A stretch of DNA of 64,000 nucleotides from Methylocaldum sp. 14B (GTDB taxonomy: Bacteria > Pseudomonadota > Gammaproteobacteria > Methylococcales > Methylococcaceae): assembly GCF_002005105.1 (NCBI RefSeq), contig NZ_MSCV01000003.1, positions 1-64,000 on the forward strand. The letters run 5' to 3'. The position numbers and the translations under genes were made by a program. Below are positions 32,856-38,545 of this stretch, piece after piece. Position 1 is the first letter of the stretch, and each line of letters opens with the position of its first letter. A model generated the notes under the pieces. The model saw nothing but the letters and a program-made list of their open reading frames with translations, did no database searches and was not told the DNA's origin.

Positions 32856-33938
32856 CTATCCGTGTCTGCGCTCGAACTCGCGCATGAATTCGATTAAGGC
32901 ATCGACTCCTTCTTCAGGCATCGCGTTGTAGATGCTAGCCCTGAATCCACCTACCGACCGGTGCCCCTCCAGGTTCACTAATCCTGCTGCTTTGGCTTCG
33001 GCCAAAAACGTTTTTTCCAGGTCCGCTTTCGCCAGCCGGAACGGGACGTTCATGCGGGAACGATAAGCCGGCTGGATGGGGTTCGAATAGAACGTCGAAC
33101 CGTCGATAGCGGCGTACAGTTTTTCCGCCTTACGGATATTGCGCGCTTCGACGGCAGCCAATCCGCCCTGATCCCTCAGCCACTCCAACACCAGGCCCAG
33201 CAAATACCAGTTGTAGGTCGGCGGCGTATTGAGCATGGAACCGCTGTCCGCCTGCTTCTTATAGTCGAAGATCGACGGCGTACCAGTCAGGGCCTGCCCG
33301 ATCAGATCTTCGCGCACGATCACCACGACGATACCGGCCGGCCCCATGTTTTTCTGCGCGCCGGCGTAAATCAGGCCGAATCGGCCGACATCCAGCGGGC
33401 GCGACAGGATATTGGACGACATGTCGCAAACCAGCGGCAGCCCGGCCGAGTCAGGAACATCCTGGAATTCGACCCCGCCGATGGTTTCGTTGGCGGTGTA
33501 ATGGAGATAAGCCGCATCCGGATCGATGCGCCAATCGGAGCGAGGCGGAACAGTCGTAAAGCCGCTTTCCTTGGAACTCGCCGCAATAGCGACCGAGCAG
33601 TACCGCTCGGCCTCGGAAACGGCCTTCTCCGACCAGAGGCCGGTATTGACATAGCAAGCCTTGAATTTTCCCCGAAGAAGATTCATTGGGACCGCCGCGA
33701 ATTGTCCGGTCGCGCCACCTTGTAAAAACAAGACTTTGTAATTCGCCGGAATCGTCAGAAGCTCGCGCAGGTCCGCCTCGGATTTCTCGGCGACGGCGAC
33801 AAAATCTTTGCCGCGGTGACTCATTTCCATGATCGACATACCAGTGGAATGCCAATCCGGCAACTCTTCGCGCGCGCGGAGCAACACCGGCTCGGGAAGC
33901 ATGGACGGTCCCGCGCTGAAATTGTAAACCCTAGCCAT
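32856..33938 (-). CDS. serC: Phosphoserine aminotransferase
   Basis: PLP enzyme making phosphoserine from 3-phosphohydroxypyruvate and glutamate; also used for pyridoxal phosphate synthesis. ATG 33938 ([19 protein letters not shown]) gives 360 residues, the family length; the frame runs on upstream inside gyrA and is not used. [17 protein letters not shown] and the PLP-lysine segment [12 protein letters not shown] are present. The start overlaps the end of gyrA by eight bases. Confidence 0.97.
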
Positions 33939-36510
33939 CGTCGCCCTCCTGGTCTTCATCCGTTTCCGCCAACTCGTCGTTTTCGCCCTCAAGGACCGGA
34001 ATCCTGTCCACTCCGACGACTTTTTCACCCGGACTGAGGCGGATCACCGTCACGCCTTGAGTATTGCGCCCGAGTTCCCGAATCTCTTCGACCCGCGTCC
34101 GCACCAGCGTGCCGGCATCGGTGATCAGCATGATCTCGTCCGAATCCTGAACGAGTACGGCGCCGACTACCGAACCGTTACGTTCGCTGGTTTGGATGGC
34201 GATCACGCCTTGGCCGCCGCGGCGGTGTATCGGAAAGTCGCTCAGCGCCGTACGCTTGCCGAACCCGTTTTCGGTAATGTTCAGCACCGAACCCTCGGTG
34301 CCGATGATGAGGGCAATGATCTTCTGGCCGTCGTGCAGCGTCATGCCGCGGACGCCGGTTGCGCCACGCCCCATGGGCCGCACGTCCTCTTCCTCGAAGC
34401 ACACGGCCTTGCCCGCATTGCTGAACAGCATGACATGCTGCTTGCCGTCTGTGATGGCCACGTTCACCAAGTGATCGTCCTGCCGCAGATCGATGGCGAT
34501 TTTCCCGGACGGGCGCGGACGCTCGAACTCCCGCAGCCCCACTTTTTTGACGATACCCGAGGCGGTCGCCATGAAAACGTAATGGCTTTCGTCGAATTCC
34601 CGAATCGGGAGGATGGCATTGATGCGCTCGCCCTGCTCCAGCGGCAGCAGATTGACGAAAGGCTTGCCGCGCGACACGCGGCTGGCCGAAGGCAGCTCGT
34701 AGACCTTGAGCCAGTACACCTTGCCCACGCTCGAAAAGCACAGAATGGTGTCATGGGTGTTGGCCACGATGAGTTTTTCGATGAAATCCTCTTCCTTGGT
34801 GGTCGCCGCCGCCTTGCCGCGCCCGCCCCGCCGTTGCGCCCGGTAGGCGCCGAGCGGCTGCGATTTCACGTAGCCTTCGTGGGAAACCGTGACCACCACG
34901 TCTTCCTCGGTGATCAGATCTTCCGCGGACAAATCGAGACGGTCCTCGATGATTTCGGTGCGACGCTTGTCGCCGAACTGGTCGCGGATGGCGACAAGCT
35001 CGTCGCGGATGACTTCCATCAATCGCTTGTCGCTGGCCAAAATTTCGAGGAGCTCGTCAATCTGCGCCAACAGCTGCTTGTATTCATCGATGATCTTGTC
35101 CTGCTCCAGCCCGGTCAGGCGGTGCAGACGGAGATCCAAAATTGCCTGCGCCTGCTCCGGCGACAGGTTGTAACCGTGTTCGGTCAGACCGTAACCGGCC
35201 GCGAGGTTTTCCGGACGGGACCGCATTGCGTCTTCCACCCTGGCCAGAAGATCCGAAACCACGCCGGGACGCCAGGTGCGCTCCAATAGCCGCTGTTTCG
35301 CTTCCGCAGGATTGGGCGACGTCTTGATCAGTTCGATCACTTCGTCGATATTCGCGAGAGCGACGGCCTGACCTTCCAGGATATGCGCACGTTCGCGCGC
35401 TTTTCGAAGATCGTACAGCGTGCGCCGGGTGACGACTTCGCGGCGATGATCGATAAACGCCGCGAGCAACTCCTTGAGGTTCAGACAGCGCGGACGTCCG
35501 TCCAGCAAGGCCACGGTATTGATGCCGAACACGCTCTGCATGGCGGTCTGCTGATAGAGATTGTTCAGCACCACTTCCGGCACTTCGCCGCGCTTGAGTT
35601 CGATCACCATGCGCATGCCGTCCTTGTCCGACTCGTCGCGCAGCCCGGAAATGCCCTCCAGCTTCCCCTCCTTGGCCAGCTCGGCGATTTTTTCCATGAG
35701 CCGGGCCTTGTTCACCTGATACGGCAACTCGCTGACGATGATGCTGGTGCGTCCGCCGTCTTCCTCGAAATCGCAGCGGGCACGGATGTAAATGCGGCCC
35801 CGGCCGGTGAGATAAGCTTCACGGATGCCGCTCGCCCCATTGATGATGCCGGCTGTGGGAAAATCCGGTCCCGGGATGTGTTCCATCAGTTCGGCGATGC
35901 CGGCATCCGGATTCTCGATCAGCAACAAGCAGGCGCTGATGACTTCGGTGAGATTGTGGGGCGGGATATTCGTCGCCATGCCCACCGCGATGCCTGCCGA
36001 ACCGTTGATGAGCAAGTTCGGAATGCGCGTGGGCAGTACCGAAGGCTCTTTTTCGGATTCGTCGTAGTTCGGGATGAAATCGACCGTCTCTTTCTCGAGA
36101 TCGGCGAGCAATTCGTGCGCAATGCGGGCCATGCGCACTTCGGTATAACGCATGGCCGCCGGCGGATCGCCATCGACCGACCCGAAATTGCCCTGACCGT
36201 CGATTAGCATATAGCGCAGCGAAAACGGCTGGGCCATGCGCACGATCGTGTCATACACCGCGGCGTCGCCGTGCGGATGGTATTTACCGATGACGTCACC
36301 CACGACGCGGGCAGACTTCTTGTAAGGCTTATTCCAATCGTTGCTCAGCTCGTGCATGGCGTAAAGCACGCGCCGATGTACCGGCTTCAAACCGTCACGC
36401 ACATCCGGCAAGGCGCGCCCCACGATCACGCTCATGGCGTAATCGAGATAGGACTGTTTCATCTCGTCTTCGAGACTGACCGGAATAATTTCTTTGGCGA
36501 AGGAAGTCAT
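33931..36510 (-). CDS. gyrA: DNA gyrase subunit A
   Basis: Breaks and rejoins DNA in the gyrase tetramer. ATG 36510 ([18 protein letters not shown]) gives 859 residues. The catalytic Tyr122 is in AAMRYTE, numbered as in E. coli. The C-terminal pinwheel has the GyrA box QRRGGRGK, confirming GyrA rather than ParC, and an acidic tail. In the quinolone-resistance region the protein reads [10 protein letters not shown], so it has Ala83 where E. coli has Ser83, with Asp87 kept. It heads the serC-to-ihfB supraoperon and lies behind a hairpin cluster. Confidence 0.98.
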
Positions 36511-36680
36511 GAGGGAGTGCTGTACCGTAAAGGAGCCGCGCCGCTTCAGATACGCCGCGTAAATAACCAACCGGCATTATAACCGTTGAGGCGTGGCCGC
36601 TCCACTAAAGCAGGAACGACAGTTGTTCACCGTCCCTGTGCATAAGATTGTGGACCGACCTTAGATAGGCAATCTAAATC

Positions 36681-36832
36681 ATTATTAACCCGGCCTATAA
36701 ATATAGGCCGGGTTAATCCGGGGCAGGGATGCCCCGGCGCGGCGACAAGCCGCGTGAGCCCAGGCCGGGCTTGTACCGGCCTGGGCGGCGGCCCGAAATA
36801 CCAGGAGGGTATTTACGGGCCTGATTAATAAT
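36681..36832. repeat. Cluster of five adjacent hairpins bounded by an outer inverted repeat
   Basis: In order: a 34-bp palindrome with 16-bp arms and an AA loop (36684-36717, ATTAACCCGGCCTATA arm); CCGGGGCA/TGCCCCGG (36718-36737); CGCGGC/GCCGCG (36738-36754); GCCCAGGCCGG/CCGGCCTGGGC (36758-36786); GGCCCG-AAATACC / GGTATTT-A-CGGGCC (36790-36821, one bulged A). The ends ATTATTAA (36681-36688) and TTAATAAT (36825-36832) are complementary, so an outer stem can form instead of the first palindrome. It lies between the herA end and the gyrA start. A REP-like or other non-coding element is the likely class; function unknown. Confidence 0.8.
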
Positions 36833-36889
36833 ACCTAAGACATTCAAGAAAATGGCGGAAATCTGGCCAGTACCGGACAAGCACCCGGC

Positions 36890-38545
36890 TTACCGCCCCT
36901 GCCGCCTCCATCGATCGACGATACCCTCGATGTCTAAATCTTCCGGACCGGACTTCCACGCCGAATAGAAATCCGCGTCGTTGCTGTTGGGCGTCGGGTC
37001 GGGCTTATAAATCTGGGTCCGGGTAGGGAGTGGGATGGCCTCGCCGAGGATCATGGCCTCGCCCCGGCTGAGAGACGTCAGGATATCGACCAAATCGGAC
37101 TCGCCCTCCGGCACCAGCTTGCGCACATAGTCCTGGTCGTCGGGATTGGTAATGCGCAGGCAGATGTACGTGCCGCATTGCGACAATACCGTTTCCGACA
37201 ACTCGTGGGGCCGCTGACTGATAACCCCCAAACCGACACCGTACTTGCGCCCTTCCTTGGCGATCCGCTCCATGGTCTTGCGAGTGCCTTCAAACTGGGT
37301 GTTGGACTCACGGGGAATATAGGCATGAGCTTCTTCGCAGACCAGGAGAATGGGAAACTCTCGGTTGAACGGGTTCCAGTAATTGAACTCGAAGGCCAAG
37401 CGCCCGATCTGCGCGGAAACGGTCGGACGCACGTCGAAAGGTACCGGGCTCAAGTCGATAATCGTGATCTGACATTTGGGGTCGCCCAATCCGACGAAAT
37501 CCCGCAGCAGCCCGGGCAGACTCTCCGAGCGGTTCCGTCTTACCGGATTGAGCAGAAAATCATAGCGCACGTCATTGAGCCGGCTCAGCAGCTTGACCAG
37601 AAACTCGTCGAACTGGCCGAACAGCGGGCCTTTGGTCTTGCCGAAATCGGTGCGGAATTCATTGGCTTCCTTGAAGCTGTCGTAAACCTCCTGTAACGAG
37701 AAATAAATTGGCGAGTCGAGCGAGATTGTTTCCAAATCCAGGGATTTCGCCGATTTTTTCTTCAACTCGTAAATCGTCTCGCGCAGGAAAGCAGTCTGTA
37801 TGGCAGCTCCCGGGTCGTTGCGATCGATCAGCAGGTCGAGCAACTCGGCGAAAGTCATCAGCCAATAAGGAATTTCCAGGGCTCGGGCGTCGAGATAACG
37901 CGTCTGTTCCGGCTTAAAGGCGGAATGGAGAGCCCTGCTCCTATCCTTCCAGCAATATTCGCCGTGCAAATCGAGCAGGATGATATGCGCGTTGGGCATG
38001 GCATCGACCATGCGCTGAATCAAACTTGCCACCGACCATGACTTGCCGGAGCCGGACTGCCCGAGAATAGCGAAATGGCGACTGCACAAAGCCGACGGAT
38101 CCAGGTAAACGCCGGTCGAGGGATGGCTGCGGAGATAGCCGGGATTGAACCGATACTGCCGGTAATTCGCGAAAATCGAATCGATCTCGTCCTCGGCCAC
38201 GATGTGCACTTCGGCGCCGGGTGTCGGAAAATGCCTTACACCGCGCTGGAACACGCCTTCATCGGTAATTTGTCCGAGCGGCGTAAGCGCGACCAGGCTG
38301 CCGGCCGCGGAACGGCATATTCGACCACCGGAACGATCTGCTTCTACATGATTGATCAGCGCCAAGGATCGAAAACCGTGCTGACGGATCGATACGTAAG
38401 ATCCCGGTTGTCCGACCACTTTGAGCTCACCGTCCACCGACACAGTCGGGCAAAAGCCTTCTTCCTCGCTCAATAGCTTGGCTACGAATTGACCGTTGCG
38501 AACTTCCAGCAAATGACCAATCAGCGTATCGGTGTGTTCGGACAT
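36890..38545 (-). CDS. HerA-like ATP-binding protein (DUF87)
   Basis: A 551-residue HerA/FtsK-superfamily ATPase. An N-terminal HAS-barrel-like region (about residues 1-130) is followed by Walker A GQSGSGKSWSV (about 168), Walker B PILLVCEEAHAYIP, the sensor SQRPHELSETVLSQCGTY and an arginine-finger region near the end. Archaeal HerA works with NurA in end resection; bacterial forms also occur in defence systems, for example with SIR2 or DUF4297 partners. No NurA or defence effector is next to it here, so a lone housekeeping role is as likely. Divergent from the chemoreceptor gene. Confidence 0.85.
   Translation of the reverse strand: MSEHTDTLIGHLLEVRNGQFVAKLLSEEEGFCPTVSVDGELKVVGQPGSYVSIRQHGFRSLALINHVEADRSGGRICRSAAGSLVALTPLGQITDEGVFQRGVRHFPTPGAEVHIVAEDEIDSIFANYRQYRFNPGYLRSHPSTGVYLDPSALCSRHFAILGQSGSGKSWSVASLIQRMVDAMPNAHIILLDLHGEYCWKDRSRALHSAFKPEQTRYLDARALEIPYWLMTFAELLDLLIDRNDPGAAIQTAFLRETIYELKKKSAKSLDLETISLDSPIYFSLQEVYDSFKEANEFRTDFGKTKGPLFGQFDEFLVKLLSRLNDVRYDFLLNPVRRNRSESLPGLLRDFVGLGDPKCQITIIDLSPVPFDVRPTVSAQIGRLAFEFNYWNPFNREFPILLVCEEAHAYIPRESNTQFEGTRKTMERIAKEGRKYGVGLGVISQRPHELSETVLSQCGTYICLRITNPDDQDYVRKLVPEGESDLVDILTSLSRGEAMILGEAIPLPTRTQIYKPDPTPNSNDADFYSAWKSGPEDLDIEGIVDRWRRQGR

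Follow-up and report, generated by a model that had tools for sequence, protein, structure and literature searches.

A five-hairpin stretch beside gyrA of Methylocaldum sp. 14B is one of about 70 copies of a small mobile DNA element, very probably an IS630-type MITE

Bacterial MITEs are short and have mostly TA termini and stable stems; A+T-richness is typical of them, and roles in RNA processing are described for the Correia and ERIC repeats (available portions of PMC10969869 and PMC2229807). RUP from Streptococcus pneumoniae is an intergenic repeat of 107 bp with 108 copies, which has TA as target and ends like those of IS630-Spn1 and has been proposed to be a MITE of this element (available portion of PMC2229807). 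The Correia/NEMIS repeats of Neisseria are small as well and combine TA termini, terminal repeats and target duplication with transcripts that fold (sections of PMC10969869 and PMC2229807 dealing with them). ERIC/RU-1, too, is described as short and intergenic; its termini are TA, its target is duplicated and its fold is stable, and according to the available section of PMC2229807 an IS partner was not looked for or found. Here, we report that a stretch of five hairpins next to gyrA in Methylocaldum sp. 14B is one of about 70 copies, most of them near-identical, of a small mobile DNA element. Judged from sequence, this element is very probably an IS630-type MITE, moved by an IS630-type (Tc1/mariner-like) DDE transposase into Y-TA-R targets.

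Among these systems RUP is the nearest in kind, the likeness being one of description and not of sequence. As far as its available description goes, RUP is likewise short, intergenic and multicopy, with TA at its ends and as target and with IS630-like ends. It lives in another host, however, and the Methylocaldum element is longer (148 bp with the TAs) and forms a chain of five separate hairpins; moreover, its candidate transposase is intact in a relative and was not found in the own genome. The Correia/NEMIS repeats, as available accounts portray them, share the small size, the TA termini, the terminal repeats and the target duplication. Their terminal repeats form one long stem. Promoters and an IHF site are among the features described there, whereas neither promoter-like nor terminator-like sites were found in 36480-36920 of the DNA analysed here. 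ERIC/RU-1 resembles our element, again by description and not by sequence, in its short length, intergenic location, TA termini, duplicated target and stable folding, but its two ends form a closing stem, as in the repeats other than CIR (PMC2229807, available portion). CIR, the Caulobacter intergenic repeat, has separate hairpin arms and no single closing stem, as here, yet the number of its arms is two, and it has a linker and a GANTC motif (same portion of PMC2229807). In contrast with the A+T-rich norm given for MITEs in the available text, the Methylocaldum element appears by eye to be rich in G and C. The five-hairpin chain and ends that are common to families with other cargo set this family apart. 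Among the literature matches listed, none described this repeat at the level of title and opening of the abstract; we judge that the kind of MITE is already known and that the repeat family is newly described.

The element was detected at positions 36681-36832 of the window, i.e. of the whole stretch of 64,000 nucleotides that was analysed. As RNA, this segment has a predicted minimum free energy of -103.3 kcal/mol compared with -62.45 (sd 4.9) in dinucleotide shuffles, none of 200 being as good, and the same hairpins are obtained for the minus strand (z -10.7) and with DNA parameters (z -11.4). The predicted fold thus gives the five back-to-back hairpins that had been read from the letters in the initial annotation, and the 34-nt palindrome mentioned there is hairpin 1 (36684-36717), in which, according to both RNA and DNA folds, the left terminal repeat is succeeded by an inverse copy of itself. 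Fold and alignment together define hairpin 2 (36718-36737), the least conserved one with 72.4% of cells paired, hairpin 3 (36738-36754), hairpin 4 (36758-36786) with the clearest compensatory pair, and hairpin 5 (36790-36821), which has a loop around AGGAGGG and includes part of the right terminal repeat. The complementary ends, ATTATTAA (36681-36688) and TTAATAAT (36825-36832), are present as well, but the outer stem and the two alternative folds proposed for them fared differently: the stem is composed of the terminal TTAA, the duplicated TA and target bases, so a switching function is unnecessary. The neighbouring genes, both on the minus strand and outside the element, had been named correctly, as judged by their Pfam domains. 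These are gyrA (33931-36507; PF00521 and PF03989), the start codon of which is uncertain since its reading frame opens at 36570, and a gene for a HerA-like ATPase (36890-38545; PF01935 and PF05872).

With its approximately 148 bp (TAs included) this dispersed repeat is too short for a transposase gene. A DNA search of the own genome, in which 40 of 84 candidates were scored, revealed at least 40 long places at 96-100% identity and one at 79%, and pattern searches with up to 3 mismatches found 55 core matches and 66 right ends; by core pattern the 64-kb window holds a single copy. Our catalogue comprises 68 sites in retrieved DNA and a 69th (C6:168042, locus L245) with an internal deletion. Identity with the window copy reaches 97% or more in 48 of the 68 copies and lies between 79 and 97% in the other 20. 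Among the 51 near-full copies the median distance from their consensus is 1 position (mean 1.9, range 0-18), when the two outermost columns on either side and an indel column are omitted, and this low divergence suggests a recent burst atop older copies. A single G separates two sub-families, 31 copies being without and 20 with it. Four copies (L076:3019-3142, L076:5810-5932, L048:2980-3101 and L085:2948-3069) lack the left end and start inside hairpin 1 within three bases of each other. Two further copies, L067:396-515 and the one at C6, have kept the left end and lost much of hairpins 1-2, with most of hairpin 1 gone in the former. Counting genomic copies was the check named in the initial annotation for telling a mobile repeat from a single-locus RNA, and the many copies found here speak for the former. 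An origin from a plasmid or phage was rejected, as the 150-bp element had no match in either the plasmid or the phage collection.

A search of 61 genomes (the own one and 60 relatives) gave a match in 12; two of these (G023 and G025) show matches of 21-27 bases alone, which were treated as chance, and another (G031) has a partial match of 85 bases. This leaves nine further genomes, all from the same family, with relatives of the element, one of these relatives being partial. Convincing matches occur in all four genomes of the own genus and in five other genera of the family, among them that of the partially matching genome, which also holds a nearly full match, while 24 genomes from other families of the order contained none. 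An exact pattern with 24 fixed bases retrieved 30 stretches from named genomes, a collection in which records close to the own genome may be missing. They belong to Methylococcaceae bacterium isolate 8 or 16 or to a MAG titled Methyloversatilis universalis. The title of this MAG (TT109_59_23; L136-L138; DYIL01000002.1 and DYIL01000004.1) may be a misnomer.

The boundaries common to 49 full-length own copies, together with the 66 right ends, delimit in the window a MITE body of 144 bp (TTAACCC...GATTAA, 36685-36828, plus strand, without target bases), flanked by a TA on the left (36683-36684) and on the right (36829-36830). TA occurs at both ends in 49/49 full copies, with a near-constant TTAA just inside. 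The base before the left TA is T or C in 47 of the 49, the base after the right TA is A or G in equally many, and the flanks further out look random; hence the ends can be written as Y-TA-[TTAACC...TTAA]-TA-R. The terminal inverted repeats including the TA (left, 36683-36705, plus strand; right, 36808-36830, minus strand) are identical at 11/13, 16/20 and 17/23 positions. A target duplication longer than TA was rejected, since a scan of the 49 full copies for duplications of 2 to 9 bases, with the boundary shifted by various offsets, found nothing enriched besides the element's own bases. The pattern fits the trace expected if the element inserts into Y-TA-R with duplication of TA.

A comparison of free and occupied sites points in the same direction. 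Copies L055 and L060 interrupt a second intergenic repeat of the own genome, the free form of which is GGCAATGCCGTTAAGTTAAGCC at C13:33593; the free form at C5:77218 departs from this by one change. The two occupied sites have GGCAATGCCA-T-TA[element]TA-A-GTTAAGCC and GGCAATGCCT-T-TA[element]TA-G-GTTAAGCC; barring one and two base differences, the gain amounts to the body plus one TA. Duplication of TA at insertion fits these sequences, which come from a single repeat context (two sites occupied, two free) and include no clean orthologous pair. In same-site comparisons L064 and L106 turned out to be unrelated insertions, and L065 and L137 (a MAG contig) carry a copy at a similar place with close flanks that do not align. 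The second repeat itself is seen at L149:1440-1600, L148:1440-1600, L055, L060, L079, L082 and L101, and the element landed in it at least twice; in several of its copies TCATTCCGGCAGGGAT adjoins GGCAATGCCGTTAAGTTAAGCC.

Placement relative to genes was assessed with a simple and crude codon-usage caller (threshold 8), leaving out three of the 68 sites that lie at contig edges. Of the remaining sites 62/65 are located between genes, in DNA of which 79% was called coding, and three overlap called frames with scores of 13, 17 and 58. The gaps that hold a site are tandem in 30, divergent in 18 and convergent in 14 cases, compared with 119, 33 and 32 among the other gaps, so that sites are somewhat commoner in divergent and rarer in tandem gaps. 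Within tandem gaps the element runs with the genes in 14 cases and against them in 16, which gives no sign of strand-specific use.

These data bear on the question whether the element serves gyrA. A structured cis-regulatory RNA in the gyrA leader, or a DNA sensor of supercoiling at this place, could explain the strong fold, which is found on both strands, and there is some likeness to the Rfam gyrA RNA (RF01740), the covariance model of which matches 36752-36838 (hairpins 4-5 and flank). This match is sub-threshold, however, reaching 27.2 bits where the gathering score is 45, and sits on the strand opposite to gyrA. No such match was obtained at L003, a second site with the identical 150 bp, and in a run of nine loci with tighter Rfam filters even the window copy itself (L001) gave none. 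The gyrA 5' region was located in 12/12 relatives searched, and in none of them did the 1.5-2.9 kb upstream contain more than 50 bases matching the element; gyrA and the HerA-like gene are still neighbours in the three congeners. Identity with the gyrA RNA was rejected on score, strand and this absence. Two of the readings considered in the initial annotation, an RNA structure in the herA-gyrA interval and a DNA site close to a gene for a topoisomerase, are not supported, given the absence upstream of gyrA in all 12 relatives, the 69 catalogued sites and the lack of orientation bias. A leader function is largely contradicted already and we regard its probability as close to negligible. Because of the absence in the relatives the gyrA copy is most simply taken as a lineage-specific insertion, which most likely landed beside gyrA by chance. 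In the same survey gyrA of relative G010 (L231, L244) was seen to be interrupted near codon 109 by an insert of about 1.56 kb. This insert reads in frame (...GQGNFG|CFTGDTRI...FLLAANVFVHN|SVDGDPP) and matches Pfam Intein_splicing with 63.1 bits (cut-off 35.8), and therefore is, by its sequence, a GyrA intein.

A candidate for the mobilising enzyme came from a terminal-repeat pattern that was chosen to avoid the known interior of the element. Run on relatives, it found other short families with the same ends in two of them and also an element of 1081 bp in genome G017 with a broken IS630-type transposase. A piece of the latter matched 18 of 38 genomes of the family, and G017 itself has five open copies of the IS630-type gene with 88% identity to the query piece. 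Two of the five were inspected (L208 and L218) and are elements of 1116 bp with TATTAACCCGGCC at both ends, TA included; the gene of L208 (345 aa) scores 238 bits with the IS630 family model NF033545 (cut-off 100). G017 carries the 150-bp repeat, too. Compared with the ends of both these elements, the left end of the window copy agrees at 13/13 positions and at 18/23 over the longer stretch, the right end at 11/13 and 17-18/23. In a control with 20,422 TA-starting 23-mers from the own loci, the counts fell off to 28 at 14 matches, whereas 142 had 15-18, which by number alone is about as many as the element ends present. Two congeners possess IS630 relatives of about half identity, the ends of which are similar by eye.

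In the own genome three DDE_3 places were detected, two with other ends and one for which no ends were found, and these IS630 genes were rejected as parents of the element because their ends do not match. At DNA level the G017 IS had no match in eight genomes (the own one and seven related) in a search run without positive control. The present assembly, which with its 84 contigs may lack repeated ISs, shows no source transposase for the own copies. A TA-targeting transposase from outside the IS630 family might be held responsible, given that searches of the own genome found no IS630 gene whose ends match, but the exact 13-base terminal match to an intact IS630-family element of the same bacterial family and the more distant IS630 relatives with similar-looking ends in two congeners make such an origin improbable.

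The initial annotation had suggested a REP/MITE-type element. Its MITE half stands, given the many copies, terminal inverted repeats, TA duplication and, in a relative, a candidate mobiliser of the IS630 type. Its REP half finds no support, since REP insertions are not known to duplicate a target. REP sequences are moved by RAYT (REP-associated tyrosine transposase) as a single hairpin with a guide tetranucleotide. A REP/BIME-type repeat mobilised in this way would be short, intergenic, hairpin-rich and dispersed, as our element is, and a family with the same ends in genome G003 does carry a REP-like hairpin. Yet every full copy has terminal inverted repeats of about 20 bp and TA at both ends in a Y-TA-R setting, neither of which is to our knowledge a RAYT mark, and the ends match an IS630-family IS, so that mobilisation by RAYT appears very improbable.

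The assignment to the IS630-type MITEs is thus favoured by many near-identical copies with common ends, by the free/occupied comparison fitting TA duplication, by the absence upstream of gyrA in 12 relatives, by the predominance of intergenic sites (62/65) and by an intact IS630-family element whose ends match, seen in a relative that has this repeat as well. Against it count the missing transposase with these ends in the own genome, the right terminal repeat with its 17-18/23 agreement, a TA duplication read from one repeat context with two occupied sites and one and two base differences, the somewhat higher share of divergent gaps with sites (18/62 versus 33/184, raw counts) and some compensatory change, as the structure itself could be under selection. 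Following the favoured assignment, we infer that an IS630-type transposase moved the copies in this genome. Such a DDE enzyme of the IS630 group would recognise the terminal repeats of about 20 bp (TTAAyCmGGCC...TAAATA), move the element and insert it at Y-TA-R with duplication of the TA. Intergenic copies would survive, and the copy at 36683-36830 would have landed between herA and gyrA, most simply after the split from the relatives examined.

The short families with the same ends deserve a closer description. In G003 a 116-bp family (L170, L173-L176, L178, L179 and L232-L243; e.g. L170:2067-2182) has TATTAA..GGCC ends and a REP-like hairpin (GAGCTTGTCGAAGCC...TTCGACAAGCTC). Inspection of 12 loci out of 17 places showed this hairpin within ends of that kind or slight variants of them. 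Similar hairpins occur in 19 plasmid records, 14 of them from Sphingobium. At G003:C1:4471427-4475932 and 5950405-5951932 the copies of this family are spaced by 1486-1489 bp, and near flanks are identical in L240-L243, which suggests that they sit in arrays of a repeat of about 1.49 kb. A 95-bp family of the same genome (L172:3009-3103, L177:2042-2136 and L181) has 21-bp ends, TATTAANNNGGCCCTTAAATA, around a plain interior, and in L172 and L177 the two ends differ in three middle bases alone. A further element of 95 bp, in L180/L161, resembles this family in its ends but not in its interior. Finally, in G017 a family of about 100-118 bp (L183, L184, L186, L188 and L189) has the same ends around a hairpin of the GTGGGAGCGGCCTTCAGGCCGC type, for which no match was found among the plasmid records. 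It is conceivable, although we consider it quite unlikely, that IS630-type ends are an interchangeable shell bounding at least four dissimilar short cargos (the five-hairpin chain, the 95-bp sequence, the REP-like hairpin akin to those of Sphingobium plasmids and the GTGGGAGCGG-type hairpin), and that strong hairpins are captured, spread and kept because folding helps. The folded form might then help as extruded DNA in transposition or as a tolerated barrier to transcripts, and hairpins would flip and be re-copied in place.

How the hairpins themselves evolve was analysed with 59 diverged copies from the own and related genomes, taking the window structure as reference. In this set 89.4% of the cells are paired compared with 88.3 in shuffles. 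Pairs changed on both sides number 11, compared with 6.6 (sd 1.7) in shuffles, of which 8/500 were as high. The covariation score is 0.062 against 0.050 (sd 0.002), with 0/500 shuffles as high and values of 0.009-0.039 for slid versions of the structure. The compensatory pair in hairpin 4 appears as A-U in 21 of the 59 copies and as C-G in 20, with 17 unpaired and 1 gap. Compensatory change in the hairpins is therefore supported, but to a moderate degree, since the structure was derived from one aligned sequence and the shuffles ignore relatedness. Additionally, whole loops are found inverted. Among 97 distinct copies classified by patterns, the loop of hairpin 5 is reverse-complemented on an intact stem in four, forward in 83 and neither in 10. 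Hairpin 1, too, has its loop inverted in a number of copies, for instance in L100, L023 and L141. Loop inversion is a DNA-level event that is also able to restore pairing, and it counts against a pure RNA reading. A different module was observed in hairpin 2 of some own copies (L095:2894-3041, L099, L104 and L045), where a sequence around CTTAGC replaces GCCCCGGC; in L095, pairing of CCTTAGC with GCTAAGG can enclose hairpin 3 and result in a different predicted DNA fold.

The excess of compensatory pairs (11 versus 6.6) and of covariation (0.062 versus 0.050), together with a fold that is stable on both strands, would also be expected of a MITE the hairpins of which had been recruited as bidirectional barriers to read-through or as sites of transcript processing, its copies being kept by selection, and Correia/NEMIS and ERIC offer precedents in the available portions of PMC10969869 and PMC2229807. 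Such recruitment nevertheless seems unlikely to us. The tandem sites have no orientation bias (14 same, 16 opposite), convergent gaps are not clearly in excess (14/62 versus 32/184 other gaps), a search of 36480-36920 showed nothing resembling a terminator or promoter, and the inversions of whole loops on intact stems (4/97 copies) represent a DNA process that can restore pairing by itself. Returning to the IS630-type MITE, we infer that its five hairpins are internal cargo, kept partly by hairpin-mediated copying or inversion and not by a function related to gyrA.

With this, the tempting interpretation of the hairpins as a leader RNA of gyrA is removed. In its place stands an abundant and probably recently active MITE family in what is likely Methylocaldum and in related Methylococcaceae, with a candidate transposase in a relative. 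Its repeated hairpins illustrate that compensatory changes can arise by flipping and copying at the DNA level and not solely by selection on RNA. Should a shell with changing cargo indeed exist, it would provide a route by which REP-like hairpins could spread without RAYT.
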